Below are positions 1,884 to 56,212 of a stretch of DNA of 64,000 bases, one piece after another (the first letter of the stretch is position 1; each line of letters opens with the position of its first letter). The DNA is from Xanthostigma xanthostigma. Taxonomy: Eukaryota; Arthropoda; Insecta; Raphidioptera; Raphidiidae. The translations under genes were made by a program, and so were the position numbers. The DNA lies in NCBI GenBank assembly GCA_963575645.1, contig OY754466.1:44858001-44922000 (forward strand), given 5' to 3'. The notes beneath the pieces were generated by a model. It worked only from the letters and a program-made list of their open reading frames with translations. It was not told the DNA's origin and did not search any database.

Positions 1884-2497
1884 CTAGCGGTCCCGTCCGG
1901 TTTCACCCGGGTGTAAAAGAACGAATGGGGAAGGGAGGAACATGAGTACACACATTCATCTTAGTTTACCGAGATTAATGTTGTGTCCAAATTTCATGAT
2001 GATCGGAGTTACCGTTAAAAAGCTTTTGTCGATAAAAACCTGTATTTATACTTTTTTTAAACTAATAATTTTTTTTAATTAATTAAACAAAATTAAAATA
2101 AATTTAAATGTAAGCCTTAGAAGAAAGCAATGTAGAAAATAAAAAAAAAATTAAAAATATTTTCGCCCAACGTGGGGCTTGAACCCACGACCCTGATGTC
2201 GACAGTCGCATGCTGTACCGATTGAGCTAGCCGGTGTTGTATTCTGACTACGCTAATATGAGTTAATTTAGTTAGTGCATTTCACCTGAATAGAAGCTTA
2301 TTTTTGAGATACATTTTGCAACATTTTTCATTAATGCTCCGCTCCTAATGGTCGTAGCGTGATATTATATAGCCTATAGCCTTCCTCGATAAATGGGCTA
2401 TCCAACAAAAAAAAAAATTCAATTTGAACCAGTAGGTCCTGAGATTAGCGCGTTTAAACAAATAAACAAACTCTTCAGCTTTATATATTAGTATAGA
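1884..2497 (-). mobile_element. Non-autonomous Helitron carrying a tRNA-Lys-like block
   Basis: On the minus strand it starts 5'-TC (TCTATACTAATATATAAAGC) after an A. It ends with a CACCCGGGTG palindrome followed by ...CTAG and then host T. This is the A|TC...CTAG|T insertion signature of Helitrons, and the sequence resembles the lepidopteran Lep1-type elements I know. At 614 bp it carries no Rep/helicase. The middle ~280 bp, absent from the short copies at 9107 and 34837, holds a tRNA-Lys-related sequence (2164-2236). Confidence 0.88.
2164..2236 (-). pseudogene. tRNA-Lys-derived sequence inside Helitron
   Basis: The reverse complement reads like tRNA-Lys: a D-arm with TAGCTCAATCGGTA (A-box region), a variable-region GGGTC, GTGGGTTCAAGCCCCAC (T arm and B box) and a 3' acceptor GTTGGGCG. 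The anticodon loop is CTGTCGA, so positions 34-36 read GTC instead of CTT. The anticodon stem is badly paired and the acceptor 5' strand is eroded (CACCGGC). It is a relic rather than a working tRNA, although the T arm is intact. Homologous relics lie at 4862, 46987 and 55857. Confidence 0.8.
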
Positions 2498-2585
2498 TTA
2501 ATAACGGACATTTTTCTGTATTTTTGTAACATATTAAAGTCAATATATTATATTGGTTAATACCAAACCATAGAGATATAAGTAA

Positions 2586-2785
2586 CTAGAGTACGCTATT
2601 TCGTATGCTTGCCATAAGTGAAAATGTCCTCAGTTGAGAGAGAGAGAACGCTGTAGAAAAACCAGAAAACCAGATATTTGTTTACTCAAATCAGCATTGT
2701 TTTGTATCATTAGTTACCATAGAGATAAGGAACTGTTCTCTGTCTGAATTGCAGACACTTTCACGGCTCACTCGCGTACTCTAGT
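2586..2785. repeat. Small inverted-repeat element
   Basis: The ends are CTAGAGTACGC (left) and GCGTACTCTAG (right). Complementarity continues imperfectly for ~70 nt, including GTGAAAATGTCCTCA against the complement of the right-side CACTTTCAC region. The 200-bp element has no coding frame. It is MITE-like and its superfamily is not assigned. Confidence 0.5.
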
Positions 2786-3481
2786 CTAATATCTCTATGT
2801 ATCAAACACATTGTATAGTGTTAAATAATGTTAATTTATAATGTAAGGTTAAATAATATTATTTTTAATTAATTATAGCTCAGTGTTTGCTATTGTTGTT
2901 GTGTGAAACACACAGTCCTTGTTACAGTTACAACTTACAATGCTATATATAAAAAAAATTACTTTCCAACAGTGTCACTATCGGGACTGAAAGCCGAAAA
3001 TTGCACTATCGCGGCGGATGATTTATAATCAGTTCTACAATGACACATAAGAACAATCAGTCAGTCTCATAATAAAGCGTATTCCACATACTCCGAGATC
3101 AAAATTAAGTATCGATGTACTATACTGCATAAATGGACTTAGTAGGCCAGGGGAAAATGTCACATGCGTTCGTACCGCGCCAGCTCACCGAGTTGCCTCA
3201 TGCGCAAAACGTACCAAAAGAACTTTTAGTTCAATAGATATAAAATAGTTAATATGATAAAATATTAGATCCGACCCTGCAGGACACATGTGCTAAAGCT
3301 TAACATACAATACATGAAGAAAATATAAAAAAATATTCCGGGGAGAGTATCCTCGCTTTGAATCGATAAGAAATTCAAGATCGTCTTTACTTGCTTATAT
3401 GAATCTGTTTCTTTCTAAAAATTTAAACGTCTTTAAAAAATATAATCAAATAACTAGCAACAATATAATTTTATGAAGTGA
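2786..3481. other. No gene seen
   Basis: This is A+T-rich sequence. I find no splice-framed exon, RNA gene or element with clear ends on either strand. Confidence 0.5.
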
Positions 3482-3680
3482 CTATAGCGGTCCCACCCGG
3501 TTTCACCCGGGTGCAAAAGAACGAATGAGAGGGAGGTACATGAGTATTACGCACGTTCATCATAGTTTACCGAGATGAATGTTGTGTCCAAATTTCATGA
3601 TGATCGGAGTTACCGTTCAAAAGTTTTTGTCGGACGGACAAATTTTCAGTTACATTTGTCATTGATGCTCCGCTCCTATT
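3482..3680 (-). mobile_element. Helitron 3' half, 5' end missing
   Basis: It matches the 3' half of the Helitron family: CACCCGGGTG hairpin region, the 'catgatgatcggagttaccg' block, then the GATGCTCCGCTCC block, where homology stops. The terminus reads CTATAG rather than CTAG, a change shared with the copy at 9107-9443. A foldback element abuts the broken end. Confidence 0.75.
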
Positions 3681-3681
3681 A

Positions 3682-3933
3682 GAAAATAGCCAATAAATAC
3701 ACAGATTAAATATTATATATTCACATATTTTTTAATACGTTCGACGTTTCGTGGATATCTTTGTCCAGATCATCAGGAATCTAAAATTTATAATACAAAA
3801 AATTTTACAAACCAAATTGTTTGTATTATAAATTTTAGATCCTGATGATGTGGACAAAGATATCCACGAAACGTCGAACGTATTAAAAAATATATGGATA
3901 TATAATTCATCTGTGTATTTATTAGCTATTTTC
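3682..3933. repeat. Foldback element with GTTTCG motif in each arm
   Basis: The arms are about 117 nt, from GAAAATAGC at the left end to GCTATTTTC at the right end. Each contains 'cgttcgacgtttcgtggat' or its complement, followed by a hairpin and a CATCAGGA/TCCTGATG core. The loop is only ~20 nt. No protein-coding potential is visible. It abuts the truncated Helitron, so one may have inserted next to or into the other. Confidence 0.75.
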
Positions 3934-3985
3934 CTGTTAATCTTTACTATCATAGTTTGCGATATAGTCGTTATTTTTTTTTTAA

Positions 3986-4200
3986 TGTAGATACTTATAA
4001 TACTCCACGTTTATAGGTTAGGTATTATGATCAATGTGGCGGCCATTATTATTTTATCAGGCGAATAAATATTTATACCCTCGAAGTAAGACAGGATAGA
4101 TTTATACCTACAGTAAACATATCGCTATTTATTCGGTGGAATAGTTATCTGAAGAAGAAATAAACCGAATAAATAACTACTTATGTTCGGTGAATATGGT
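3986..4200 (+). repeat. Dispersed repeat, inverted partner at 13.9 kb
   Basis: The segment with 'tactccacgtttataggtta', 'gcggccattattattttatc' and 'tatttattcgg' is repeated in reverse orientation at about 13902-14045. It is non-coding, and the family is not recognised. Confidence 0.6.
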
Positions 4201-4449
4201 CATAAGAAGTAAACATGTTCTGTTTCGGAAGGATACCAAGAATCCGCTGTTTACTTTTTTGTCGAATATATTTCGAACTTATCTACGACTGTATTCCATT
4301 TGAACAAATTCAGTACCTACTCACTTTAGTTGAAACCGTCACGATGTCTGCTTTAATACATAAATCAGTCAAGGAGAATAATAAATTTGGGAACAAATTC
4401 GTTTATGGCTATTGTAAGTCACAGCGCTCTTCAAGTGAAGTAAGAAGAT

Positions 4450-4560
4450 CGAAAAAAAAGATGAGTTACAGTCGCGGTGGGACTGTGGGATTGAGTCGAA
4501 CCTACTTGTGCAGGGTTCACACGCGACGCCCAAATATCTAACGCTCTTATACAATATAGG
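4450..4560 (-). repeat. Possible tRNA-related SINE head
   Basis: On the minus strand a GTAGGTTCGACTC block resembles a Pol III B box. It is preceded by 'aagagcgttagatatttggg' at roughly A-box distance and followed by 'cccaccgcgactgtaactca'. The layout suggests a tRNA-derived SINE head, but no second copy is in the window and no proper cloverleaf can be drawn. Confidence 0.35.
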
Positions 4561-4587
4561 CAATTGATCTTTCAATTTTATTTAATA

Positions 4588-5192
4588 CTAGCGGTCCCGC
4601 CCGGTTTCACCCGGGTGCAAAAGAACGAATGGGGAAGGAAGGGACATGAGTACACACATTCATCTTAGTTTACCGAGATTAATGTTGTGTCCAAATTTCA
4701 TGATGATCGGAGTTACCGTTCAAAAGTTATTGTCGATAAAGAGCAGTATTTAAACTTTTTTTAACTAATAATTTTTTTTAAATGAATTAAATAAAACTAA
4801 AATAAATTTAAATGTAAGCCTTAGAAGAAAGCAATGTAAAAAATAAAAATAAAAATATATTCACCCAACGTGGGGCTCGAACCCACGACCCTGATATTGA
4901 CAGTCGCATGTGCTACCGATTGATCTACCTGAGGTTGTGTTCTTTCATCACTAATATGAGTATATCTAGTTAGTGCACTTCACATGAATAGAAGCTTATT
5001 TTTGAGATACTTTTTGCAACATTTTTCATTAAAGCTCCGCTCCTAATGGTCGTAGCGTAATATTATATAGCCTATAGCCTTCCTCGGTAAATGGGCTATC
5101 CAACAAAAAATTTTTATTCAATTTGAATCAGTAGTTCCTGAGATTAGCGCGTTCAAACAAACAAACTCTTCAGCTTTATATATTAGTATAGA
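4588..5192 (-). mobile_element. Non-autonomous Helitron carrying a tRNA-Lys-like block
   Basis: This is the second member of the tRNA-bearing subfamily, 605 bp, with canonical A|TC and CTAG|T borders on the minus strand. It is very similar to the copy at 1884-2497 through both flanks and the tRNA-like block. This includes the T-rich 'aatatatttttatttt' stretch immediately 3' of the tRNA sequence and the 'ctacattgctttcttctaag' block beyond it. Confidence 0.88.
4862..4934 (-). pseudogene. tRNA-Lys-derived sequence inside Helitron
   Basis: It keeps GTGGGTTCGAGCCCCAC (a perfect T arm with B box) and CAATCGGTAG of the D arm. The anticodon loop is CTGTCAA (34-36 = GTC), as in the neighbouring copy at 2164, so those two share ancestry after the anticodon changed. 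The acceptor stem is damaged at both ends (CCTCAGG against GTTGGGTG). Not expected to yield a functional tRNA. Confidence 0.78.
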
Positions 5193-5211
5193 TCTATTAA
5201 ATTCAGTATAT

Positions 5212-5256
5212 GTCTGTACTCCTGAAGGTGGACTGATTGTCCGAAACGATCGTCGA
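5212..5256. repeat. GAAACG-hairpin-CCTGAAG motif
   Basis: The segment has CCTGAAG, then GGAC...GTCC as a small hairpin, then GAAACGATCGTCG. The layout matches the motifs at 205, 3745 and 50620 with a different hairpin sequence. It lies immediately 3' of the 89-codon minus-strand frame, where the 3' untranslated end of a mobile element might be expected. Confidence 0.45.
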
Positions 5257-5282
5257 GAGAGAGAGAAAATATTTTGTTTTTA

Positions 5283-5552
5283 TTATTTGTTATTAAATTT
5301 CCTTTTCGAAATATTTTCTTTTTTTCTCATATACCAAACATGGGAAGCCTTGTGATCGTGCAAAAATTTCGACTTTGAGTTTTTCAAGTCCTCTGAATTC
5401 ATAGTCAGAGTGCCCGTCGGCAAAAATTTTACTGACAAATACTCTCCCCAAACTTTGCATATGGCTTCATTAGGCCTATTTCCTCTATGACTTTTTTTGA
5501 TTTTGGGACGTTTTCCCTCTAAATTTTCCGAAAGATGTCGTTTTGACGACAT
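5283..5552 (-). CDS. Unrecognised basic ORF, probably mobile-element remnant
   Basis: An ATG-initiated minus-strand frame of 89 codons ends at TAA. The product is strongly basic (N-terminal KRHLSENLEGKRPKIKK, C-terminal RKKENISKRKF), with the central segment AICKVWGEYLSVKFLPTG. I recognise no domain, signal peptide or membrane segment. Codon use is ordinary for the A+T-rich surroundings. No promoter or splice context is evident. The GAAACG-hairpin-CCTGAAG motif just downstream suggests the 3' end of a mobile element rather than a host gene. It could also be a chance frame. Confidence 0.3.
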   Translation of the reverse strand: MSSKRHLSENLEGKRPKIKKSHRGNRPNEAICKVWGEYLSVKFLPTGTLTMNSEDLKNSKSKFLHDHKASHVWYMRKKENISKRKFNNK

Positions 5553-5640
5553 GTAAAAAATTTATAGATACTGTTTGTTTTTTTAATTGGATAGCTTGAA
5601 AACTTCAACCAAAACGCTAAAATAACGTTCTTTAACAAAT

Positions 5641-5720
5641 AACATGAACCATTTAAAATGTTCGACACCTCGAATATGTCGACATATTCGAGGTGTCAGA
5701 CATTTTAAATGGTTTATGTT
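5641..5720. repeat. 80-bp near-perfect palindrome
   Basis: The arms AACATgAACCATTTAAAATG... fold back without a spacer around a central GTCGAC, with only a few mismatches. There is no flanking element homology elsewhere in the window. It would extrude as a cruciform. Confidence 0.75.
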
Positions 5721-6444
5721 ATTGCCCTTGACAATTAGGACTAAGTCCTATTAGTCCCTTATAGATCCCTGTCGATCGTGCCAAAAGATCGAGAATTAAA
5801 AATACATCATGTTGGCCAAATGACGGGAACCTTAAAATATGTTTGATGTTATCTTCTGTCAATGATAACCATTCTGTTGAAATTACTGAAGAGTATTTTC
5901 AACTTACTATAAATATAGTTTACAATTAACAACCCTATATCGATAAACTGAAGGCCCCTAGGGCTTAATATCTCGAACGTGGTAACTAAATCTGGCTGGA
6001 TATGTCTACCTTTTGTTTACGTGATCGTGTTGACCGAAAACTCTCTGCTCCTATCAACGTGATCTATGTGTCTAGGTTATTTGTGACCGGCGTTGTTTTG
6101 TTTCAGACTGTTTTATATTTTTAAAGCCAAATACTTTGTCGAATTGCATCAAAAATGTGTTCTTGAAACGTGATTACTACAGATGCGCCGAGTAAGGTAC
6201 CGATTTATTACTCAATACTCGGCAATTCGGCAGTATTTTTTGTTGTACCCGGCCGAATAACTCGGTTAAAGTGACAATTCATGTAATTCGGCTAAAAATG
6301 TAAATGACATTGAAAATTATACACACTTGGGATTTTTAGTCTTTCAGAAAAAGTTTTTTTTTTTTAATTGTTTTATTATCTAATTGTAAGGTACGTTCGC
6401 AAAAAGCGAGGGACGGGCCCCATTCTTGTTCACAATGAAAAATA
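5721..6444. other. No gene seen
   Basis: No exon, RNA gene or bounded element can be supported. The segment contains only scattered short frames. Confidence 0.5.
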
Positions 6445-7035
6445 CTAGTGTGACCTGTGCGAATTATTCGCACTAAATAAGTATAATAATTATCACTTTA
6501 CAAAATTATTTTTTAAATATGATTGCAGGTATTCAATTCGTTTCTAATTTTGCACATTTCTTATAACGTTCTTCTTTTTGTTGTATTACAATATGAAACT
6601 CAGATGACAGATCGAAGAAATATTTTACTAAAATTGTCATATAGAGGCGTAAGTAGCAAAGGCGTTGAGCTAAGCCGTCGGATGGCATCATGCAGCATTG
6701 TTGTGACGTTGTTCAGCGTTGCTCGCTGTTTCAAAATTAAAGCCGTCAGATGGCAGTATGCAGTATTGTGTCTGTTGTATTACAATATGAAGGTTAGATG
6801 ACAGATCGAAGTGTTGACGTTGTTTCAAAATTCAAGCTGTCAGGTAGCAGACGTTGTTCAGCGTTGCTGTATTTTAATTAATTTACAAAAACAAAAGCAA
6901 TAATAAATTTGTCGATGTCAGTACAGCAAGCAATTATCTGTAAAATGATATATAATTTATGTGGAGAAATTGTGTGGTTTTTTCTAAAAAGGGAGGCAAA
7001 CATCTTTAACCTTAGCGTATTAATATATTATATGA
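6445..7035 (-). mobile_element. Second Helitron family, non-autonomous copy 1
   Basis: On the minus strand it begins A|TCATATAATATATTAATACG. It ends in a perfect hairpin GTGCGAATAATTCGCAC 11 nt before CTAG|T, which are classic Helitron termini. It is 591 bp. A frame starting near QVFNSFLILH is shared with the copies at 23150 and 39284, but it has no Rep/helicase motif and is best read as conserved non-coding sequence. Relative to the other two copies it carries an extra segment repeating the GATGACAGATCGAAG block. Confidence 0.82.
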
Positions 7036-7372
7036 TTCCTACTCGATTTTTCGTGCGCATAATTTTTTAATCAGACGAAATATAATAAAATTAATTAGAA
7101 ACTTCGAATTGGAACCACAAAATATATTTATGTGATATATGCAGGTTATTTATATATAGAAGTTTCTATACTTTCTCCGTTCTTACCAGGTCTAAAGCAA
7201 ATAAATGTCAGTATTTTGACCATAATTTTAACTTATCACACGAATGTTGATTTATTTTAATTTTATATATATAAATTGGCTTCTGAAATATAAAAAGTAT
7301 ATAATATATTTTGCAGCTACCTTGAAGTCTTAATATTTAACCAAATATAATAAAAAAAAAACTTTTTAAAAA

Positions 7373-7535
7373 AATGGAACCTCCGTCAAAAAACGGTCAC
7401 TATAATAACAAAGTTTTGAAGTCGGCACGAATATAAAACGTTATAGTAATCAAATTAGTGCCGACCTCAAAACTTTGTCATTTTACGCTTGTTACTGAGC
7501 CATTTCTGAAAGAGGTTCAATTTTTGTCAAGTTTT
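7373..7535. repeat. Foldback MITE
   Basis: The inner arms 'acaaagttttgaagtcggcac' and its complement are nearly perfect around a ~37-nt loop. Weaker pairing extends outward (GGAACCTCC against GAGGTTC). It is about 160 bp and has no coding frame. Confidence 0.6.
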
Positions 7536-7774
7536 TTATTTTCCATGTTCAAATTTTGTGCTTTTTTTTAGAAATAGAAAAATAGTCGACAACTAAGTAA
7601 TGTTGGAAGATGTCACCCTGTATATAAAATAATATTTCAGCGCACTCAAAACATATTTCTAGCGCTTAGGATTTTTTAAGATTGTGAATTCAATGGATAT
7701 CCCTATATCTAAAATCTCGCTAAACATATCTGTAGCTCAAAATCTATTAGTTCTTAGCATATATTTAATAAATT

Positions 7775-8155
7775 ACTATATGAATAATTGTCTATCTACT
7801 CAATGTGCGGTGAGTGAAGGCAACAAAGCGTATCGAAAATATATCTGCGTCTCTTTCTTCGATGTAATTCCCTGATTTCTCCGATGATAGGATTGGTTAA
7901 TGTACTTGCATTCAATCTGAATAAAGTATCTCTGTTTCAAAAACTTTGTCTTTTTCTATGACGTTAACATGGGCGTACCCAGCTTTTGGCACAGGAGGGA
8001 ACAAATTAGAAATTTTTTAAGCCGGGTCCCCCGTGCTTGTTTTGCCCTCCTGGATACGCCAATGCTTACGGCTTAAAAAAGACCGAAGTATATGTTTTGC
8101 ACCCTAATGGTTCGATTGCGGTTTTATTCCTATGCTCAGTATAGAATAAAATTAT
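7775..8155 (+). repeat. Dispersed repeat family U, copy 1 of 3
   Basis: The segment from 'ctactcaatgtgcggtgagt' through 'tttctccgatgataggattg' to 'taatggttcgattgcg' is shared with 44163-44556 and 51786-52140. Copies 1 and 3, but not 2, contain a ~95-bp insert running from GGGCGTACCCAGC to CTGGATACGCC (about 7970-8064), whose ends are inverted repeats. That looks like a nested miniature element. No coding capacity. Confidence 0.7.
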
Positions 8156-8756
8156 ATGGACACTTTTTCTTAGTGACCTTTAAACTATAAAAATATAAAA
8201 CCATTTTCGATCAATTTAACCGAAAGCCAAATCCCATAAGGATTGTGCGGGGTTCTTTGCTTGTTTTTGCTGGTTTATGCTCTTCAATTGCAGGTTGAAG
8301 GTTTGTACTGTGCTGGTCGTGCAGGTGTATGCTTGACAAGTGTGCGCGGTCTTTAAATGCGAAGCAATGACGTCAACAATTATTTGCAACACTTTCAGTT
8401 CGAGATACGGTGTAATGTGAATTTTATTATAGCCTTATAAGATTTATCAGCACAAGGTGTGTGATATTTATACATCAAAATTACATCATTTCTAGAGCTC
8501 TCGGCGTCATTTGCGGTACCAAGTCGAACTACACAGCCCACGCGTATTCAACAGTATTTAGTAACATATCATTAAAGTTATTATGCGTGAAAAACCGCAA
8601 ATTGATGGTTATATCAAACAGGATTCGGTTAAATATTCTATATTGAAACACTTCGCAGTCTTCAGACTCGTGTCTGTCTACATTACAGCGCAGAAAAAAA
8701 AACCTACAGCTACTGGTATAATTAATACTCAAGAAAATAAATAATTATAATAAAGC

Positions 8757-8850
8757 GTTTGACGTCCGTTTCTTGACTTTGAGTCATAACAGACTTCATT
8801 TGCACCATTACTATTTTCCATCTATCACACTTCCCGTTATTTTGTGCACG
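8757..8850 (-). repeat. SINE tail fragment
   Basis: This is a reverse-orientation match to the 3' part of the SINE at 14455-14812 ('ggaaaatagtaatggtgc', 'aaacggacgt'). Only the tail portion is present, with no tRNA-like head. Confidence 0.65.
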
Positions 8851-9106
8851 ACATAAATAAGTGTTCTAAATAAATATAGAGATAAATAGACATTGGGAGA
8901 TATAAATATTATGTGTAGATAATAGTTTAGTGTTATTGTTGTTGTTTTATAATTCGTTTGTTTGTTGTTATGTATTTTATTATTTCATTTTTCATTATTA
9001 TTAGAGAAGTACTTTTTAGTTTGTTTTTGTTAACGTTTCTTTTTGTGTAAATAAATATTTTAACCACCGACTAAGAACAGTTTTGTTACAACTTATTAGA
9101 TAACTA

Positions 9107-9443
9107 TCTATACTAATATATAAAGCTAAAGACTTTGTTTGTTTGGTTGGTTGAACGCGCTAATCTCAGGAACTACTGGTTCGATTTTTTTTTTTGATAG
9201 CCCATTTATCGAAGAAGACTATAGGCTATATAATATCACGCTACGACCAATAGGAGCGGAGCATCAATAAAAAATGTTGCAAAATATAACTCAAAAGACA
9301 AAACTTTTGAACGGTAACTCCGATAATCATGAAATTTGGACACAACATTCATCTCGGTAAACGAAGACGAACGCGCGTACTCATGTCCATCCCCCCCATT
9401 CGTTCTTTTTGCACCCGGGTGAAACAGGGCGGGACCGCTATAG
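9107..9443 (+). mobile_element. Short Helitron without tRNA block
   Basis: It starts A|TCTATACTAATATATAAAGC and ends CACCCGGGTG...CTATAG|T. At 337 bp it joins the 5' and 3' modules directly ('tgttgcaaaatataactcaa' to 'aaacttttgaacggtaact'). It lacks the ~280-bp tRNA-bearing centre of its relatives. The CTATAG end matches the fragment at 3482. Confidence 0.85.
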
Positions 9444-10679: not shown

Positions 10680-10687
10680 GTGGAGTC

Positions 10688-34836: not shown

Positions 34837-35197
34837 TCTATACTAATGTATAAAGCTGAGGAGTTTGTTTGTTTGTTGGTTTGGTTGAACGCGCTGATCT
34901 CAGGAACTACTGGTTCGAATTAAAAACAATTTTTTGTTGGATAGCCTATTTATCGAGGACGACTATAGGCTACATAATATCACGCTACAACCAATATAGG
35001 AGCGGAGCATCAATGAAAAATGTTACAAAATGTAACTCAAAATTTGTCTGTCCGACAAAAACTTTTGAACGGTAACTCCGATCATCATAAAATTTGGACA
35101 CAACATTCATCTTGGTAAACTAAGATGAATGTGCGTACTCATGTCCCTCCTCCCATTCGTTTTTTTGCACCCGGCTGAAACCGGGCCGGACCGCTAG
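34837..35197 (+). mobile_element. Short Helitron without tRNA block
   Basis: A|TCTATACTAATGTATAAAGC ... CACCCGGCTGAAACCGGGCC ... CTAG|T, 361 bp. The tRNA-bearing centre is absent, with 'atgtaactcaaaatttgtct' leading directly to 'acaaaaacttttgaacggta'. One base of the terminal hairpin is mutated (CCCGGCTG). Confidence 0.87.
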
Positions 35198-35663: not shown

Positions 35664-36003
35664 ATAGCGATCCCGCTCGGTTTCACATGAATGGGGGGAG
35701 GGACATGAGTACGCACATTCATCTTAGTTTACCGAGATTAATGTTGTGTCCAAATTTCATGATGATCGAAGTTACCGTTCAAAAGTTTTTGTCGAACGGA
35801 CAAATTTTGAGTTACATTTTTCATGATGCTCAGCTCCAAATAGTAGTAGCGTGATATTATATAGCCTATACCCTTCCTCGATAAATGGGCTAGTCAATAA
35901 AAAAAATATCAATTCGAACCAGTAGTTCCTGAGATTAGCACGTTTAACCAAACAAACAAACAAAGCCACAAACAAACTCTTCAGCTTTATATATTAGTAT
36001 AGA
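35664..36003 (-). mobile_element. Short Helitron, 3' terminus damaged
   Basis: A minus-strand copy with an intact 5' end (A|TCTATACTAATATATAAAGC). At the 3' end CTAG has become ATAG and the CACCCGGG hairpin is largely deleted. No tRNA block. Confidence 0.82.
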
Positions 36004-38803: not shown

Positions 38804-38969
38804 AAGTTTGTTCCAAGCAGCGAACGGTAATAGAACCGTACACAGTCTGGTCACTGCGCAAGACTGTCTTGCGCAGTAACGATTTTTGAGCTAGTGCGCA
38901 AGACAGTCTTGCGCAGTGACAAGACTGTGTACGGTTCTGTTACCGTTCGCGGCTGCTTGGAACAAACCT
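38804..38969. repeat. Foldback with GCGCAAGACTGTCTTGCGC boxes
   Basis: The arms begin AGTTTGTTCCAAGCAGC and end GCTGCTTGGAACAAAC. In the middle, the 19-nt palindrome around AAGACTGTCTT occurs in two inverted versions separated by ~17 nt. Pairing is nearly perfect over ~70 nt per arm. Confidence 0.8.
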
Positions 38970-40188: not shown

Positions 40189-40190
40189 TA

Positions 40191-44160: not shown

Positions 44161-44162
44161 AA

Positions 44163-46703: not shown

Positions 46704-47473
46704 TCTATACTAATATATAAAGCTGAAGAGTTTGTTTGTTTGTTTGGTTGAACACGTTAATCTCAAAAACTACTGGTTCGAATTAAAAAAAAAAATTAAT
46801 TTGGATAGCCCATTTATCGAGGAAGGCTATAGGCTATATAATATCACGCTACGACCAATTGGAGCGGAACATCAATGAAAATGTTGCAAGATGTATCTCA
46901 AAATTAGTCCGTCCGACAAGTATTATCGGGTGAAATTCCTTAACTAAATATTGCAATATTAGCGCCTCACATTCACACATTCACAAGCCCGAATAGCTCA
47001 GTCGGTAGAGCGTAAGACTCTTAATGCCAGGGTCTTGGATTCAAGCCCCACGTCAGCGAATATATTTTTATTTTTTTTATTTTCTACATTGCTTTCTTCT
47101 AAGGCTGACATTTCAATTTTTTTAAATTTTATTACGACTAATTAAAATTAAATTAATCTAATTAAAAACCCATTTGAAAACTGTTACAACTATAGTTACC
47201 TATATAAAAATAATTTTCCTACAGTGTTTCCAATTAAATATTTATTATATTTTATTAATAATTACAATAATTATTGTTTTAAAAGAAATTTATTACTTAA
47301 AAAAAGTATAAATACTGCTTTTTAACGACAATAACTTTTGAACGGTAACTCCGATCATTATGAAGTTTGGACACAACATTCATCTCGGTAAGCTAAGATG
47401 AATGTGCGTACTCATGTCCCTCCCTTCCCCATTCATTCTTTTGCACCCGGGTGGAACCGGACGGGACCGCTAG
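46704..47473 (+). mobile_element. Non-autonomous Helitron carrying tRNA-Lys(CTT)-like block
   Basis: A|TCTATACTAATATATAAAGC ... CACCCGGGTGGAACCGGACG ... CTAG|T, 770 bp, the longest copy. Beyond the tRNA block it has an additional ~140-bp A+T-rich stretch (47160-47300) compared with the 55592 copy. The tRNA-like block still has the Lys anticodon. Confidence 0.88.
46987..47058 (+). pseudogene. tRNA-Lys(CTT)-derived sequence inside Helitron
   Basis: GCCCGAATAGCTCAGTCGGT, loop CTCTTAA with anticodon CTT, GGGTCTTGG and TTCAAGCCCCACG show direct descent from tRNA-Lys(CTT). The anticodon stem (TAAGA/TGCCA) no longer pairs and the 3' acceptor strand has lost a base (GTCAGCG). This is the most informative of the four copies for the origin of the block. 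Confidence 0.85.
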
Positions 47474-48390: not shown

Positions 48391-48464
48391 TGAGGAAAAC
48401 CATGGAAAACCTCAACAAGATGGACGGTACAGAAATTATCGTTTCTCGCGATTTAGAAAATTTT

Positions 48465-48533
48465 TTACACTTATTTTAAAATGAAAATTTAATCGTCAGC
48501 CCCCCTGACGATTAAATTTTCATTTTAAAATAA
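48465..48533. repeat. Palindrome with short C-rich loop
   Basis: CACTTATTTTAAAATGAAAA...CGTCAG pairs with its complement across CCCCC. It belongs to the repeat unit described next. Confidence 0.75.
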
Positions 48534-49080
48534 GTGCTGTATCGACCTTACAGAAAAAAGTCCGCTGAATCGAATGAGCACAAGCGCAGAACTGTATCTC
48601 TTCTGGTTTCGAAGTTATGAGCATTTCAAACTCGATTATCTCCGAAACTAGGCAAGATACAGAGCTGCACCTGTGCTCATTGGATTCAGCGTGTCAAAAT
48701 TTACCGGGTAACCGTAATATCAACCCGTTCTGGAAGACTTCGATTTTGAAAATTTTTACAGTGGGGGGGGGGCGACGATAAAATTTTCATTTTATAAATA
48801 AGTGCAGTATCGACCGGAAATTTATAGAATATTATGGTTGAAAATGACTTAGTCCTATGCAAAAAATCATGATGAATCGAATGAGCGTGCCTAGAAGTCT
48901 GTAGCTATTGTAGTTTACAAGTTAAAGCGTTTTTAATTTTTTCCAGAAAAATTTAAAAAAAAGCGTCTAACTCCTAAACCAAAATAGATACAGAGTTGCG
49001 GGTGGTTTCATTGGATTCAGCGTGATTTTTTCCATAAGTATGCTTAATATTAACCGTATCGGAAGGCTCATAGTGCCTCA
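48480..49080. repeat. Diverged direct duplication, ~280-bp period
   Basis: The blocks 'aaattttcattttaaaataa', 'gtatcgacc', 'tgaatcgaatgagc', 'gatacagag' and 'attggattcagcgtg' occur in order twice (from about 48510 and about 48785). The second copy is strongly diverged and preceded by a G9 run at 48762. TGAATCGAATGAGC and CTCATTGGATTCAG also form an inverted pair inside each unit. Confidence 0.6.
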
Positions 49081-49564
49081 AAAAGTCACCGATTTGCGAA
49101 AACATCGAAAATGTTGCTCAGCGTGTTAATGTTCTCTGCTCGGTCGTACTTCACTCTTCTGTGATTGGTCGTAAAAAAGGTAAGAACACCAGTCGTCGAC
49201 ACAACTGTCTTTGAACCGCCTAGAAAGGCACTTCACCCGCTGCCTCATCGTCTTTGATAGTGTCTACCGCAGTTGTGGACGAAACGTCGAGTAGAAATAC
49301 CAATGGACCACGACCTACAAGCCCGGAAACCAAGAAGACTTCGAACTGGACCGGTCGTGAAAGCTTACACAAACGATCTATATTGATACCAACAGGCCAC
49401 GTTGACCAACTTGGTTTACTGTCCAAAGCGACCTTATTATTAGTGTATTTGCCATAAGGCACTTACACTATTGGCGTCGGTCGGATGGCGGGACCTAGAG
49501 GTCGGACCAAAATTTCTCGACGTTTCATAGCCCCCTAAGAAGTTTGGCACCATTTTTGGAAAAG
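49081..49564. other. No gene supported
   Basis: Frames open on both strands at 49220-49462 across a G+C-richer stretch, but neither gives a recognisable protein, splice sites or a start context. Treated as non-coding. Confidence 0.4.
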
Positions 49565-49711
<147 letters not shown>

Positions 49712-49883
49712 GGGCTATAACTTTCGAAAGAGTTAATTGATTTTAACGAAATTTGGACCACACGTTGGAAACCATCACCGCACGAAGCCTATTTAAAATG
49801 GGCCCAATCGGGCCATGTTAAGGGTGGTATTTAGGGGTTGAAAACAGTTTTCGGGCCCAAAAATACCGAAAAATTTCTCCGAA

Positions 49884-50222
49884 TCGTTTCAAAATTGAAA
49901 TTTAACCCTTTAGTAATTATTAAAATGTGCTGCTAAAATTTTAATAAAATCGGCCCGACAGGACCGGACTTACAAATTTTGTGAAAACGCAAGTTTACTG
50001 ATATGGATGTACATACTGAAGGGTGTATATAATTTGGTACAGATGTTGAATTGATATTAATATTGAAATTAAGTAAAAAAATTTTGTTTTAAGGGGTGTA
50101 TTAAGGGGTATTTTTTTATTTTGCCTTAAAACAAAGCTAAGTTCATATAATAGAGCCACACTGCCTATAAAAGCAAATACACTATATTGTCGGCAGGGTT
50201 TCGCACTGCGACCCGAGTTTTT
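49884..50222 (+). repeat. Dispersed repeat V, copy 1
   Basis: 'aaaattgaaatttaac', 'cggcccgacaggaccggact', 'aaggggtgtattaaggggta' and 'atattgtcggcagg' are shared in order with 56663-56996. It is about 340 bp and non-coding. Confidence 0.75.
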
Positions 50223-50556
50223 GAGCTTTGATGTGGACACTAGACTGTCGTTGTAAATAACGTTGCGTATAACATACGTTGTTGTAATGCGGCCTTTACA
50301 ATTTATTCTGGTTATACGTTTTTGCGCCACGACATTGCTAATATGGTATTATGAAGTTGTAATAGAATCGTTAATTGTTGATTTACTTCACTGTTCGCTT
50401 ACTAATAGGGATGGCGATGGATACTCGAGTAAAATCGAGTTCCCGGATTCAAAATGCATTCAACATTGCTTTTTAAATGTAACAGGAAAGGGGTCTTTTA
50501 TAAATTATTATGAACTTAAATTATTAAAAATATATATTAGATATCGTGTCCATCGA

Positions 50557-50998
50557 GATAATTAATAAGAAAAATCGCAGGATTGTTGACAAAAAGTTAT
50601 TTATTTAGAGTAGGTACGACGTTTCGTCTATATATTTAGACTTTTTCAAGTACAAATGTGAAAATTTGAAACAATAATTATGAAAATAAACATAAATTAC
50701 TAACCATAGCATCAAAAACATGGCATTTTTATGTAGGTATACATTTTAAACAATAAAAATAAAAATACGAAAGTTAGTTCAATTTCATAACATAGTTATA
50801 CTGACTTATGTTTTTGACTTATGTACCTTAACTTTTGTTAATTGCTATGGTTAGTAATTAATGTTTATTTTCATAATATTATTGTTTTAAATTGTCACAT
50901 TTGTACTTGAAAATGTCTAAATACCTATATAGACTAAACGTCGTACACTAAAAAATAACTTTTTGTCCACAATCCTGCGATATTTTTTATTAATTATT
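50557..50998. repeat. Foldback element with GTTTCG motif
   Basis: The arms (~150 nt) run from TTAATAAGAAAAATCGCAGG to CCTGCGATATTTTTTATTAA and include 'cgacgtttcgtctatatatt' in one arm and a degraded version in the other. The ~130-nt loop is unpaired. It has the same motif class as 3682-3933. Confidence 0.75.
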
Positions 50999-51284
50999 AA
51001 AAATGTTTTCCTTTTTAGTACATTTTAATTATTTTTATGAAAATATTAGGTATCTTCTTTTTAGTCCCAAAATTTTTACTATTTTAAAATTGATTGATAA
51101 TTTAATTCTAAAAACGACTGAATCTTTTTTAGTAATCGGGAATATGTGTACAAAATTTCAAATCGATCGGATATAAGGCGTCCGCCATATTAGGTTTACA
51201 ATGGCGTCACATACAGTATCGTAATCCACTTGTCAAACTCTTTCAGTTCATGTTAAGAGGGTTATGAAAAAAGGTAATCCGCCA

Positions 51285-51335
51285 TATTGGAGCGTCCGCC
51301 ATATTGGAGCGTCCGCCATATTGGATTTATGTATT
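51285..51335. repeat. Three tandem CCGCCATATTGGAGCGT units
   Basis: The 17-bp unit is repeated three times, the last ending in GGATTT. A single related unit (GTCCGCCATATTAGG) lies at 51181. Confidence 0.85.
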
Positions 51336-51539
51336 GTCGTCAAACTTATACACGTATACAAAATTTCAATATTCTAGCTTCTTTACTTTAGTATTTTCTC
51401 GTATTGTCATCTAATTCTGAATTATATTAAAAATTTTAAGTCTCTATCTCATCAAGAAGTTAGTTTAAAATCAATTACAAAGTTCCGCCCGACATATACG
51501 AAAAGCAAGTTGATGTAATCGTGGTAAAATAATAAAATA

Positions 51540-51655
51540 GCCCTTGTTCTAATTTTAAAATCCATCTTCTGAGCTAGCGAGCCCGCAGTGACGTCATTTC
51601 CAGCCTCGTCGCCAGCCTGCCAGCCAGCAGAAGCCCCAGCCTCGTATGCAGCAGC
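51540..51655 (-). repeat. MITE family M, end fragment
   Basis: 'ttctaattttaaaatccatc', 'cgcagtgacgtcattt' and 'cgtcgccagcctgcc' match one end of the family M element (compare 24630-24725). Confidence 0.6.
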
Positions 51656-51785
51656 CTTAATTAACCTAGATGTAGGTAACTATTGGTACGAACAAAACTC
51701 AGTTTTGGTGCGCAAAGCGTTAACTTGTTGGCGGGATGTGTAATAAGCTCATATATTTAATAATTTACTATATATGAATCATTGT

Positions 51786-52140
51786 CAATCTACTCAATGT
51801 GCGGTGAGCGAAGGCAAAAAAGCGTATCGAAAATAAATCTGCGTCTCTTACTTCGATGTAATTTCCTGATTTCTCCGATGATAGGATTGGTTGATGTACT
51901 TGCATCTGAATAAAGTATCTCTGTTTCAAAAACTTTGTCTTTTTCTATGACGTTAACATGGGCGTACCCAGCTTTTGACCCAAGAAGGGGCAAATTAGAA
52001 ATTTCTTAAGCCGGGTCCCCCGTGCTTGTTTTGCCCTCCTGGATACGCCAGTGCTTACGGCGTAAAAAAAGTCAGAAGTATGTGTTTGCACCCTAATGGT
52101 TCGATTGCGATTTTATTCCTATATGCTCAGTATAGAATAA
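51786..52140 (+). repeat. Dispersed repeat family U, copy 3, interrupted by MITE
   Basis: It is homologous to 7775-8155, including the GGGCGTACCC...GGATACGCC insert. Homology stops at 'agaataaaagtata', where a family T MITE begins. Confidence 0.72.
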
Positions 52141-52148
52141 AAGTATAG

Positions 52149-52466
52149 TACGCGCCACGAATCTAAAAGGCTCGGAAGTTAGATGCGAATGCAGGCTTGC
52201 GCTTGTACAGTCTGTTGAAAAACTACAAACTCGCAACTCAACAAAACTAACATAGCAATAACAACTTGACAATAGCGTACTCGACTGTACTTTAAAGCAG
52301 GAAAGCGACAAGTGACAAAGGCAACGAGCGATCACGGGCAATCACCGACGAGCGCACGTTCCGTGCAGGTAGCTGGGAGGTGGTGGGAGTATCAACGGCT
52401 CTAAAATGTGCCTTTGCGACGCTGTTTGTGACTAACTTCAGAAACTTTTAGATCCGTGGCGCGTAT
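52149..52466. mobile_element. TIR MITE family T, copy 2
   Basis: GTACGCGCCACGAATCTAAA ... TTTTAGATCCGTGGCGCGTA. The ~315-bp body is very similar to 39877-40188, implying recent activity. It sits at the end of repeat U. Confidence 0.78.
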
Positions 52467-52831
52467 ACTATATATGAATTAGCTGCATCTTTCTTAAGAC
52501 AAAGACTTATTTTCCGATCACGCCACATGTAAAATCGTACAACCTGATCTCGCCTGTTAATTATATCGACGATAAAGTCGATGAGTTATTGTGTTCTCAG
52601 CCGCGTCAAACAGCAACTGAACACAATTCACGGAGCTATTACTTGCAGAGTGAAGTCACAGTCAAGTGACAGCAATTAATGTTATTTACACGCACTATGT
52701 CTCATGGCAATCAGCACAAATTAAATTGAGGGTGTAAAACCGTGCCTGCTTTTTGTGTGCGTTAAACGCAAACGTCTTTATTTTTAACCGACTTCAACAA
52801 AAAGGAGGAGGTTCTATGTTCGTCTGTATAT

Positions 52832-53504
52832 TTTTTTTTTGACGTGATAACGTCTTATAAATTGATGAATCACCAATCTTATAAATTGATAAAACACCGG
52901 CTGCATGCACGAAAAAGTGTAACGTTCCTAAATCCTAACGTTCCTAACGTTCGTAACGCGTAACGTTCCGCCTGACCCTGTGCGTGCTTTTTGCTAATTT
53001 CTCGCTCAATTTAAATCAGATCGGTTTGAAACCAGTCTTAAACGAAAGAGGAGAACATTTTACATAGATTTCGTATAACAGAATTTGCCTAAACAGTTTT
53101 TTTATACAAATTTATATAGAAAAATAGCTGTATAAATGCAATGTTGTCTAATGCATGGCGCGACGCGGTCGGTCGTCTTTGTTTGCCGTACATGGAAATT
53201 AGAAGATAACGTATGTCTTGTCTTAACATGAAAACGGCTGCATTTCTAATGTTTAATTCAATTTTTTGACATTAGTATTTTGTGAAATGCAACGCCTTCT
53301 AAGTTAAGTATTGGAATAACTAATTATTATTAGAACATAATACTTTGACAGTTGCAAACGTCACTTTTGACATTTCTTATCATTCCGACACCAAGGATAA
53401 GCGGATTGAAACCAAATTTTGGGAGGTTTAGGTTATGTATTACGGAATACGTTATCACGTAAAACTATCGTCCGTAAACCGACTTTACAGACAACCAATT
53501 TTTT
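52832..53504 (+). mobile_element. Element family Z, copy 5 with exchanged interior
   Basis: The ends are as in the other family Z copies, with the duplicated 'cttataaattgat' unit and an iterated AACGTTCCTAA/CTAACGTTC tract as at 11821. Unlike them, its middle (52995-53428) is a ~430-bp sequence that recurs outside any family Z ends at 54105-54535. It lies in the poly-T of a repeat with 'aaaaaggaggaggttctatg'. Confidence 0.7.
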
Positions 53505-53715
53505 ATGGACCGATTTTCAATTTTTTTTTTTTATTCGAAAGAGTGCACCTCAGAGGTGGTCCCATCGGAACCAAGTCAGGATCTGATGGTGGAATCCGGA
53601 GAAATCGAGGGAAACTCTCAAATTTCAAAGACACGCATAATGTTTTTTATGTATGTTTACCGATTTTTAGTGTTAGATTAACACTAAAAAGAGAAAAATA
53701 AAATATTTTTAACAA

Positions 53716-53881
53716 AAAAATTGAACCGACTTCACACTAAAAAGTAAAAAATAATTGCGTATTGAAATGTTTTGGAGTCGGTGTAGTTCTCGGAATAGAT
53801 TTCATTTCGGCTGACACCGACTCCAAAACATTTCAATACGCAATTATTTTTTACTTTTTAGTGTGAAGTCGGTTCAATTTT
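53716..53881. repeat. Foldback, perfect ~70-nt arms
   Basis: AAAATTGAACCGACTTCACACTAAA... and its complement are identical to the last base I could check. The loop is 28 nt. The outer edge is fused to 'aggcgcgattagcgtaagct', the start of the next repeat. Confidence 0.85.
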
Positions 53882-54104
53882 TAGGCGCGATTAGCGTAAG
53901 CTAAAGCGCCTTATATGTACTCGCTTTGTCTGTGAATCTGTGAGTCACGCTTTTTGTATCCAGCGTACAGCCCAAACGCCTTAACCGATTTTAAAAAACT
54001 TTTTTTTGTTCGATTCGTCTCCGGATAACTTAAATCCTAACGTCGCCCGATTTTTGAATTTTGACCCCAGAGGGGAGCAATAAAGAAAAAACGAAGTTTT
54101 TTGC

Positions 54105-54535
54105 TTATAACTCACTCAATTTAAATCAGATCGGCTCGAAACCTGTCTTAAACGAAAGAGGAGAAAATTTTACATAAATATCGTACAACAGAATTTGCCA
54201 AAACAGGTTTTTTATACAAATTTATTTAGAAATAAATTCAATTTGATATAATCGATGGCAAACATCTTTCGGTTATCTCTCTCTGTTGCACGGTTTAATA
54301 TGGTAATATAAAGATTACGTTTGTTCTGTCTTAAAATAAAACGATTGCATTTGTTCAAAAACGGATGGCATTTCAAATATTTGTGAAATGCAACGCCTTC
54401 TGAGTTAACAATTTGAATAACTAATTATTAGAACATAGATAATACTTTGACAGAATATGCAAACGTCATTTTTGACATTTCTTACCATTTCTACACCACG
54501 TATGAGCGGATTGAAACCAAATTTTGGGAGGATGT
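54105..54535 (+). repeat. 430-bp repeat also found inside family Z copy 5
   Basis: 'actcaatttaaatcagatcg', 'gtcttaaacgaaagagga', 'aatgcaacgccttct' and 'gcggattgaaaccaaatttt' match 52995-53428 in order at moderate identity. Confidence 0.75.
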
Positions 54536-54570
54536 TTGATATGCAAATATTAAGTGGCCTATTGTTTTTT

Positions 54571-54976
54571 GGGAACATCGGCGCATGCGTAAAAGAGTAT
54601 ATCTTTTATAATGTTGTTTTATATAATAATAATATAGTTTTTAAAAAGACTTATTATTTTATTTATTTTTACATGAAAGTATTGTAAATTTTTTGGGGAA
54701 AATCGGCGCATGCGCAAAAGAGATATGGGCTATGACGTTGTTTCTTATAAGTATAATAATGCTTTACATTTCATAACGGTTGATTATTCTATCTGTTTTA
54801 CAAGAAAGTTTTGTAATTTATTTTTGGGGAAAATCGGCGCATGCGCAAGAGATATTATGTGCTATAACGTTTTTTATATAACAATGGTATACTTTTCATA
54901 GCGGCTTATTATTCTATCTGTTTTACAAGAAATTTTTCTATTTTATTTCGGTAAAAATCGGCGCATGCGGAGATAT
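54571..54976 (+). repeat. Minisatellite, ~125-bp period, GCGCATGC core
   Basis: Units start at 54571, 54695, 54826 and 54950 (spacing 124, 131, 124). Each begins GGGGAAAATCGGCGCATGCG followed by AAAAGAGATAT and an A+T-rich remainder with 'ttattctatctgttttacaa'. The last unit is truncated. One isolated monomer is at 25400. Confidence 0.88.
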
Positions 54977-55429
54977 AATATGTTATTACAAGAAAAATAA
55001 AATAATAATAAAAAGAAAGTTTTTATTGAAATGTACCAAAATGGAAATATAATTATTTTAATAATTTAGGGTAATAATTATAAAAAAGTTGGTTGTGACT
55101 AATTATTAATAAATTATTAAAATGATTTTTTCCTTTCTGTGTTTCAATATTTTCAACTGTAATTTTTTTCGTAGATTAAGTTAATTAAATTATATTATTA
55201 AGCTCAAAGTGTCGTTAAAAATATACAACAATTTTCAAACATAACGCCGGGGTATATTTTATAGAATTTCGCGCCTTGTAATTCTTGAATTACTTGTGTC
55301 TTCAGACAATATTTTTTTTGTTAAAAATATTTTATTATAAACGCAGTCCTGCAGACCTATATTTAAGCAGTTTAAAATTATTCCGTTATCATGCATATAC
55401 ATATATGAATGTTTAAAATCAATTAAAAA

Positions 55430-55591
55430 TAAAGCAGATCAATACAATCGTAACACTGATATCCATAATTACTGCACTAGAGATAGTTTAAATATTAGAA
55501 CACCCAAACATAACTTGTCATTTTTTGAGCAAAGCCCTACATATTGGAGGCACAAGTTTTATAACAAATTGCCTTGTAATCTATATCTATA
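55430..55591 (+). pseudogene. LINE reverse transcriptase C-terminus, part 1
   Basis: The frame NTDIHNYCTRDSLNIRTPKH and FFEQSPTYWRHKFYNKLP is the familiar H.Y.TR...L..P.....  ....G...YN.LP signature near the end of insect LINE ORF2 proteins. The copy is cut by a Helitron at 55592 and resumes at 56213. Confidence 0.7.
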
Positions 55592-56212
55592 TCTATACTA
55601 ATATATAAAGCAGAAGAGTTTGTTTGTTTGTTTGTTTGAACGCGCTAATCTCAGGAACTACTGGTTCGAATTGAAAAACATTTTTTTTGTTGGATAGCCC
55701 ATTTATCGAGGAAGGCTATAGGCTATATAAAATCACGCTACGACCATTAGGACCGGAGCATTAATGAAAAATGTTCCAAATGTATCTCAAAAATAAGCTT
55801 CTATTCAGGTGAAATGCACTAACTAAATATACTCATATTAAGCACGTGTACACCCAGCGCCGACTGGCTCAATCGGTAGAGTACGCGACTTTCAATATTA
55901 GGGTCCTGGGTTCAAGCCACACATTGGGCGAATATATTTTTATTATTTTTTTTTTATTTTCTACATTGCTTTCTTCTAAGGCTTTTATTTAAATTTATTT
56001 TAATTTTATTTAATTAATTAAAAAAAATTTATTAGTAAAAAAAAGTATAAATACTGCTTTTTATCGACAAAAACTTTTGAACGGTAACTCCGATCATCAT
56101 GAAATTTGGACACAACATTCATCTCGGTAAACTAAGGTGAATGTGCGTACTCATGTTCCTCCCTTCCCCATTCGTTCTTTTACACCCGGGTGAAACCGGA
56201 CGGGACCGCTAG
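55592..56212 (+). mobile_element. Helitron with tRNA block, inserted in a LINE tail
   Basis: A|TCTATACTAATATATAAAGC ... ACACCCGGGTGAAACCGGAC ... CTAG|T, 621 bp, the fourth member of the tRNA-bearing subfamily. It follows two extra 'ctatat' repeats, and the flanking LINE frame continues on both sides. The order of events is therefore LINE first, Helitron second. Confidence 0.9.
55857..55930 (+). pseudogene. tRNA-Lys-derived sequence inside Helitron
   Basis: GGCTCAATCGGTAGAG, loop CTTTCAA (34-36 = TTC), GGGTCCTGGGTTCAAGCCAC and a 3' end ATTGGGCG. The anticodon stem is unpaired and the T stem has mismatches. It is a relic like its sisters. Confidence 0.8.

Follow-up and report, generated by a model that had tools for sequence, protein, structure and literature searches.

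A tRNA-Lys-like gene unit carried by non-autonomous Helitrons of Xanthostigma xanthostigma

Helitrons shuffle pieces of protein genes, and non-autonomous Helitrons are mobilised by the Rep/helicase protein of an autonomous partner. Helitrons with captured gene fragments are known from maize, bats and Bombyx, and in insects as Hel1 (PMC6544945). For tRNA genes, the closest case is an Arabidopsis tRNA-Cys cluster that overlaps annotated Helitrons. Its authors discuss tRNA gene capture by a Helitron, but three Helitron prediction programs failed to place a reliable element over these genes, which form a local array; that paper also describes the spread of an entire tRNA gene unit by a Helitron as undocumented (PMC10701932). 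A search of the titles and abstract openings of open-licence literature returned, among the matches listed, no report of tRNA-Lys gene capture by a Helitron. Here we describe a family of short Helitrons with an internal tRNA-Lys-like block and propose, with a probability of about 0.83, that a non-autonomous Helitron lineage once acquired a host tRNA-Lys(CTT) gene with its flanks and spread it by rolling-circle transposition.

The window analysed is a 64,000-nucleotide stretch of contig OY754466.1 (positions 44,858,001 to 44,922,000). An earlier note on this DNA had pointed to four Helitrons with a tRNA-Lys-like sequence at the same internal position, and alignment recovered all four at full length:

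1884..2497, minus strand: H1, full-length non-autonomous Helitron, GTC subfamily (TC..CTAG ends between A and T; alignment)
4588..5192, minus strand: H2, Helitron, GTC subfamily (alignment; end motifs)
46704..47473, plus strand: H3, Helitron, CTT subfamily (alignment; end motifs)
55592..56212, plus strand: H4, Helitron with its own anticodon, TTC, grouping with the GTC subfamily (alignment, end motifs, tree)

Each of the four is preceded by a host A at its TC start and followed by a host T after its CTAG end; no target duplication was visible by eye in their 15-bp flanks, and all are too short to hold a Rep/helicase protein. As a candidate 3' hairpin, the palindrome CACCCGGGTG lies sixteen nucleotides upstream of CTAG, and the predicted fold of 47433-47473 was no better than those of shuffled sequences (z 0.29). 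Of 51 copies checked for the two end motifs, with mismatches allowed, 34 had both, 16 had one and 1 had neither. The right context is common to all four window copies, as the note had held; the left context 'gcactaactaaatatactca', said to be equally shared, occurs only in H1, H2 and H4, and H3 has a clearly diverged version of it (63-67% identity to the other three).

The tRNA-Lys-like blocks lie on the strand of their own element in all four copies:

2164..2236, minus strand: block of H1, loop GTC (RF00005, 21.7 bits)
4862..4934, minus strand: block of H2, loop GTC (BLAST, alignment)
46987..47058, plus strand: block of H3, loop CTT, 3' acceptor strand short of one base (RF00005, 20.0 bits)
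47065..47069, plus strand: TTTTT, Pol III terminator-like, 6 nt after the H3 tRNA (T5 in all four window copies)
55858..55930, plus strand: block of H4, loop TTC (BLAST, alignment)

For comparison we used a reference sequence that we take to be an insect-type tRNA-Lys(CTT), and the Lys identity of the block is putative insofar as it rests on this reference. BLAST of the reference against the window returned the blocks of H1-H4 as the only strong matches (E 7e-18 to 1.4e-13; next 0.42). When tRNA-Lys types were compared, the four-copy consensus agreed with the CTT-type reference at 65/72 positions and with a TTT-type reference at 53/72. The CTT loop at 46987 and the GTC loop of two copies had been read correctly before; the fourth copy, H4, reads TTC.

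To place these copies in the host genome (623 Mb), it was searched with two queries, yielding the best 40 of 1859 and the best 40 of 2579 first-look candidates. The listed places were ranked by tRNA similarity; 71 of these 80 were read, and three incidental blocks brought the total to 74. A Helitron left or right module adjoins the block in 74/74 cases, in a sample chosen mostly by tRNA similarity and therefore biased, in that a non-Helitron copy whose tRNA is less similar could have escaped; on this evidence the block is part of the element. In 62/74 the left, insert-left, trailer and right modules were all detected. The ratio of CTT-type to GTC-type copies, 32:42, mirrors the two queries only. 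Nine copies without the right module were considered as sharing an alternative 3' end, but their breakpoints differ in position and lead into unrelated sequence, which marks these copies as truncations. Searches of virus and prokaryote collections with three patterns in viral contigs and two in genome contigs gave no match.

Resemblance to tRNA-Lys persists in the consensus of many copies. Against the reference tRNA-Lys(CTT), the GTC-type consensus matches at 65/73 positions (exceeding 35, equalling 3 and falling below 4 of its 42 copies) and the CTT-type consensus at 64/73 (exceeding 17, equalling 15 and falling below none of its 32). A T5 run follows within 20 nt of the tRNA in 73/74 blocks, against a background of about 6% of sampled window positions with T5 at a comparable distance, and CCA follows in 0/74. 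Together these features point to capture of a tRNA gene from genomic DNA and away from a tRNA copied by reverse transcription.

The copies fall into two subfamilies, with loop CTT in 32/32 and GTC in 42/42 copies of the two sets. The CTT type, mostly picked by similarity to H3, has lost an acceptor-stem base and has a changed anticodon stem in 32/32 copies, and few derived tRNA states are common to the two subfamilies. We built a tree from the Helitron ends alone, using 53 copies with both end modules, namely 31 named GTC-type, 19 CTT-type and 3 empty. Each group was separable with none misplaced; node support was 0.989 for the CTT type and 0.907 for the split of the GTC type from the rest. 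Any copy without CTCTTAAT was named GTC-type, and it is because of this rule that H4 (TTC) counts as GTC-type in the tree. The tRNA type thus tracks the Helitron ends. H3 is not simply an ancestor that 'still has CTT' but a member of a separate subfamily with defects of its own.

Most copies of the tRNA look degenerate. ARAGORN called none of H1-H4 as a tRNA gene in the window; H3 (20.0 bits) and H1 (21.7 bits) fell short of the RF00005 cut-off of 29, and whole-window Rfam scans list no tRNA. In the window copies 2 or 3 of the 5 anticodon-stem pairs are formed, and the cloverleaf is not intact. Among the loci read, ARAGORN called 1/60 a tRNA, and the RF00005 cut-off was reached in 8/20 loci, hand-picked from 71 distinct ones (8/12 GTC-type, 0/8 CTT-type). 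Some GTC-type copies do pass, such as the best copy, L035 (RF00005 40.6 bits; ARAGORN tRNA-Asp(gtc)). A-box and B-box patterns occur together in 59/74 blocks, in a sample of which all but three copies were chosen by tRNA similarity. Predicted folds of the four window blocks were no better than shuffles (the H2 stretch being offset by 2 bases). A candidate pre-tRNA hairpin in the GTC-type consensus, GCGTTGT..ACAACGC, was followed through 43 copies, a further copy without the anchor (L060_2) being dropped; its pairs are mostly kept, and with no two-sided compensated change it gives no support for a conserved structure.

Comparison with collinear elements that have no tRNA defined the insert and its junctions:

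3485..3680, minus strand: Helitron right module without insert, 5' part missing (alignment)
9107..9440, plus strand: collinear Helitron without insert (alignment, ends)
34837..35197, plus strand: collinear Helitron without insert (alignment, ends)
about 35689..36003, minus strand: collinear Helitron without insert, damaged 3' end (alignment, ends)
2032..2301, minus strand: H1 insert, 270 bp
4736..4999, minus strand: H2 insert
46914..46919, plus strand: left CGACAA of a 6-bp direct repeat around the H3 insert (read from sequence)
46920..47325, plus strand: H3 insert relative to empty copies, comprising left flank, tRNA, T-rich trailer and an extra A+T-rich segment
47326..47331, plus strand: right CGACAA of the direct repeat (read from sequence)
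55793..56064, plus strand: H4 insert

Of three tRNA-less copies proposed previously, those at 9107 and 34837 stand, and the one placed at 35664 is in fact on the minus strand, at about 36003-35689. About 65 bp of insert precede the tRNA block, and the trailer 3' of it is 94-96% identical between H3 and the other window copies; the H3 leader has an 8-bp duplication of its own. CGACAA is doubled around the H3 insert; the empty copies at 34837, 36003 (minus), 3680 (minus) and L048 have it once, and that at 9107 has it shortened to GACAA. The 6-bp repeat fits loss of the insert by a filled ancestor as well as it fits acquisition.

The insert has one position, one strand and shared flanks, is co-inherited with the Helitron ends, occurs in two subfamilies and carries a mostly degenerate tRNA. 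The earlier proposal of one tRNA-Lys capture followed by spread with the Helitron is supported by the modules beside 74/74 blocks, by tRNA types that track the ends and by the resemblance retained in the consensus. The acquired stretch would have been at least about 270 bp of host DNA, which included a tRNA-Lys(CTT) gene and the sequence flanking that gene on its 5' and 3' sides, taken up by repair or template switching at the 6-bp microhomology CGACAA, which is the filler-DNA route. Empty elements would have given rise to a CTT type that kept the old left junction, and this to a GTC type without it. The unit has since reached at least dozens of places, judging from the copies read, and probably thousands, judging from the search candidates. 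The tRNA would be a passenger, most copies being pseudogenes in which the internal promoter boxes are often intact.

The order of events could also be reversed, with the tRNA-bearing Helitron older and the empty copies arising by deletion between the two CGACAA repeats. Loss between such repeats would give exactly the empty junction seen; the three complete empty copies, however, form a separate group in the tree rather than scattered losses, which is weak evidence at n = 3. We consider this unlikely, and the proposed polarity of empty and filled states is tentative, given three complete empty copies that group together. Separate captures of different tRNA-Lys genes by the CTT and GTC subfamilies would account for the few derived tRNA states that they have in common and for left insert flanks only 63-67% alike between H3 and H1, H2 and H4. 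Both subfamilies nevertheless share an identical insertion point and strand, and the 94-96% identity of the trailer would require recent duplicates of one gene; such a double origin is very improbable.

A single insertion of a tRNA-derived SINE into a Helitron, with amplification of the resulting composite, would likewise bring a tRNA-like part with Pol III boxes, in an insert of 270 bp in H1, and a short direct repeat like that flanking the H3 insert. For Heliconius, PMC4016481 mentions a composite in which the SINE subfamily Metulj 4 is joined to a Helitron-like element. A SINE would, however, have its tRNA head at the 5' end, and here about 65 bp precede the tRNA. The T5 directly after the tRNA (73/74) is expected to stop Pol III transcription, the right end of the insert has no A-rich or repeat tail, the direct repeat is merely 6 bp, and none of the 74 blocks, in a sample chosen by tRNA similarity, lies outside a Helitron. 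We regard a SINE origin as improbable. The earlier note had named a tRNA-like block in an unrelated element as evidence against capture, and none of the 74 blocks read was without an adjoining Helitron module.

Transcription may have left a mark on the captured genes. In 4/6 copies outside the genome search's selection, divergence is higher in the leader and tRNA than elsewhere in the element; in the other two it is not, and H3 shows no such excess. The initial test of local divergence covered three window copies only. In the GC/CpG control, a reference containing the 8-bp leader duplication of H3 spoiled the leader counts of the two CTT-type copies; the comparison of regions given above uses another reference for them. 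Tentatively, and on balance doubtfully, Pol III could have transcribed the captured tRNA genes in the germ line during the spread of the Helitron. Its mark would be a local excess of mutations in the tRNA and chiefly in about 16 bp immediately 5' of it, whereas the trailer and remaining element would be unaffected. If so, the family would offer a natural experiment, replicated across copies, on transcription-associated mutation at tRNA genes that selection no longer constrains, and the GTC subfamily would provide tRNA-Lys bodies bearing an Asp anticodon throughout the genome.

Capture and spread by a Helitron would, if correct, account for the very large numbers of tRNA pseudogenes found when genomes are annotated and show that a Pol III unit can spread without reverse transcription. 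It would also supply many copies for measuring mutation at tRNA genes free of the usual selection, and the dispersed copies may be a natural record of tRNA gene decay.

Among known systems, the gene-capturing Helitrons of PMC6544945, as far as the available text describes them, resemble this family in being non-autonomous, in co-amplifying internal host DNA and in having filler-DNA-like junctions. Their cargo consists of gene or other host fragments, whereas the present family carries an entire tRNA gene unit, terminator included. By description only, the lepidopteran Lep1 and Hel-2 share with this family a 5' TC, a 3' CTRR or CTRY/CTAG, an A/T target, short length and many copies, and the word tRNA is absent from the main texts of their papers (PMC4038834, PMC4344730). 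The Metulj/Helitron-like composite of Heliconius, in the available account, is similar in that a Pol III tRNA-like unit is co-amplified with Helitron-like sequence to high copy number. Metulj, however, is a tRNA-headed SINE that also transposes by itself, and its composite is given by the authors as 'data not shown' (PMC4016481); here the tRNA is internal and has a terminator, and no copy among 74 lies outside Helitrons. Unlike the Arabidopsis tRNA-Cys array, the family described here consists of elements with both ends, dispersed over many contigs.

The window (64 kb, 33.7% G+C, in a host genome of 623 Mb in 28 contigs) contains four complete Helitrons of 605–770 bp that carry a tRNA-Lys-like block, together with collinear copies without the middle part:

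1884–2497, minus strand: tRNA-bearing Helitron H1
4588–5192, minus strand: tRNA-bearing Helitron H2
46704–47473, plus strand: tRNA-bearing Helitron H3
55592–56212, plus strand: tRNA-bearing Helitron H4
3680, minus strand: collinear Helitron without the middle part, 5′-truncated
9107: collinear Helitron without the middle part
34837: collinear Helitron without the middle part
36003, minus strand: collinear Helitron without the middle part

The blocks pointed out by the earlier note are real: each lies on its element's own strand, and all four elements start with TC preceded by a host A and end with CTAG followed by a host T, termini that we take to resemble lepidopteran ones and that may point to a moth or butterfly host. 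A left module of about 190 bp and a right module of about 148 bp are common to tRNA-bearing and middle-less (empty) copies. In H3, the leader (the ~16 bp directly before the tRNA) contains an 8-bp tandem duplication (CACATTCA; 46968–46983), which makes the spacing before its tRNA 8 bp longer.

Compared with assumed reference sequences, the window copies match tRNA-Lys(CTT) at 57 to 62 of 72–73 positions, and their majority consensus matches it at 65/72, versus 53/72 for tRNA-Lys(TTT). A BLAST search of the window with tRNA-Lys(CTT) gave E = 1.4e-13 for the weakest block and at least 0.42 for the next-best places. The four blocks are degenerate: 2 or 3 of 5 anticodon-stem pairs are kept, Rfam tRNA scores are 20.0 bits (H3) and 21.7 bits (H1), both below the cut-off of 29, and ARAGORN called no tRNA gene anywhere in the window.

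We searched the host genome with the H3 block (the 40 best-scoring of 1859 first-look candidates) and with the H1 block plus some flank (best 40 of 2579). Of the 80 listed places, 71 were read, as 78 loci including seven duplicates (L009–L015); three incidental blocks in fetched flanks brought the sample to 74, which includes H1 and H3 and excludes H2 and H4. A left or right Helitron module adjoins the block in all 74, and every module was detected in 62. Fixed differences divide the blocks into a set of 32, with anticodon CTT and a single base absent from the 3′ acceptor strand, and a set of 42 with anticodon GTC; the relative sizes of the sets reflect the two queries used. ARAGORN called one of 60 loci, a GTC copy (L035, Rfam 40.6 bits), as tRNA-Asp(gtc), and among 20 hand-picked loci of the 71 distinct ones the Rfam cut-off was reached by 8/12 GTC-type and 0/8 CTT-type; the majority of copies look like pseudogenes. 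Likeness to tRNA-Lys(CTT) persists in the consensus sequences, at 64/73 for the CTT type (a better match than 17 of its 32 copies and a tie with the other 15) and 65/73 for the GTC type (better than 35 of its 42 copies, tied with 3 and worse than 4). Beyond the targeted copies, ~125 kb of fetched flanks held the three incidental blocks, one an internal duplication, and this yield together with the candidate counts suggests, as a rough estimate, thousands of copies in the genome. The internal duplication (L060, 393–1218) lies in a single Helitron, runs in tandem from the tRNA anticodon arm through the trailer (the T-rich stretch after the tRNA) into the right module, and has its junction at a short microhomology. 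Another copy (L032, 1610–1757) has part of its left module and the left flank of the insert duplicated in inverted orientation.

A tree built only from the left and right modules of 53 copies with both nearly complete matches the tRNA types: all 19 CTT-type copies form one clade (support 0.989), all 31 named GTC-type copies split from the rest (0.907), three complete empty copies stand apart and none is misplaced. Because of this match, and because the trailer of H3 is 94–96% identical to those of the other three window copies, we conclude that the block travels with the Helitron. Neither the tree nor the trailer comparison gave any sign of repeated insertion, and the pattern is that expected of one event followed by vertical inheritance. 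At least five T lie within 20 nt after the block in 73/74 copies (T5 occurs in a comparable place at ~6% of sampled window positions), CCA follows the tRNA in 0/74 and ~65 bp of insert precede it; these features indicate a piece of genomic DNA with a tRNA gene and its terminator, and thus a gene copy rather than a SINE. CGACAA stands on both sides of the H3 insert and once in empty copies (shortened in 9107), so the insert may have been gained through filler-DNA repair with microhomology at CGACAA; later deletion of the insert fits this pattern equally. The GTCCGTCCGACAA-like left junction of empty copies is retained in the CTT type; most GTC-type copies in the alignment have ATAAGCTTCTATTCAGG at this place, suggesting that empty copies came first, then the CTT type and then the GTC type. 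The capture-then-spread reading of the earlier note is largely upheld. We give a single capture of a host tRNA-Lys gene that spread with the Helitron a probability of about 0.83, slightly reduced by the tie between the CTT-type consensus and 15 of its copies.

In some copies, change is locally concentrated in the leader and tRNA. Among H1, H2 and H4, variable columns number 10/14 in the leader, 21/73 in the tRNA and 55/516 elsewhere (Fisher 3e-8), and none of 5000 permutations equalled the scan statistic at any of the four window sizes. Divergence of leader16+tRNA versus the rest of the element, measured against a subfamily consensus built from copies chosen by tRNA similarity, was raised in four of six copies outside the genome-search selection, H2 (0.157 versus 0.047, p 6e-4), H4 (0.247 versus 0.029, p 3e-10) and the incidental L050_2 (0.125 versus 0.021, p 7e-4) and L003_2 (17/88 versus 16/401, p 5e-6), and not in H1 (0.079 versus 0.039, p 0.16) or H3 (5/88 versus 20/390, p 0.79); all six were still first spotted by tRNA likeness (by an earlier reader or by BLAST of fetched flanks), and the internal duplication L060_2 was left out as a seventh. 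In genome-search-selected copies, mean differences from consensus (GTC-type, CTT-type) were 0.069 and 0.089 for the leader, 0.045 and 0.009 for the tRNA, 0.015 and 0.021 for the insert just upstream of the leader, and, with some inflation from force-aligned truncated ends, 0.071 and 0.090 for the left and 0.103 and 0.147 for the right module, so the leader exceeds the neighbouring insert but not the end modules. Median BLAST identities of near-complete modules to the window copy in the two sets were 94.5 and 92.9% (right) and 90.6 and 90.6% (left).

Transcription-associated mutagenesis raises rates in the immediate flanks of tRNA genes, according to the part of PMC8113476 that cites Thornlow et al. 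(2018). Germ-line Pol III transcription of the captured genes during Helitron spread could have left such an excess, a doubtful reading that loses further weight from the selected copies, whose leaders diverge no more than the end modules. Sub-lineages from masters with different leaders could also produce it, as could a structure-prone site; a leader hairpin is not supported by any compensated changes. A/T and G/C sites were both raised (the reference for two CTT-type copies carried the H3 duplication, which upset the leader counts of those two), and base composition is not obviously the cause.

Other features of the window are:

38856–38914: hairpin GCGCAAGACTGTCTTGCGC...GCGCAAGACAGTCTTGCGC
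53710–53883: long, near-perfect inverted repeat, foldable on both strands
54565–54969: tandem array, 125-bp unit, 3.2 copies
61439–61981, plus strand: open frame of 180 aa
62233–62622, plus strand: open frame, 7tm_1 match (E 1.4e-12)

The inverted repeat hits several miRNA models from plants or animals, all below cut-offs, and is more likely a foldback (MITE-like) element. The 62233–62622 frame is a probable exon of a receptor of the rhodopsin family; the 180-aa frame had no Pfam match and presumably resembles the terminal part of a reverse transcriptase from a non-LTR retrotransposon.

According to passages of PMC10701932, the Arabidopsis tRNA-Cys cluster, if Helitron-amplified, would set a precedent as the first case of a non-coding RNA captured by a Helitron; in that study no Helitron could be predicted reliably across the tRNA genes. 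A SINE–Helitron composite in Heliconius is mentioned, as data not shown, in a section of PMC4016481, and the papers on Lep1, Hel-2, Hel1 and silkworm Helitrons do not use the word tRNA in their main texts. Capture by Helitrons is a known behaviour; what is unusual here is the cargo, and the scale is large.
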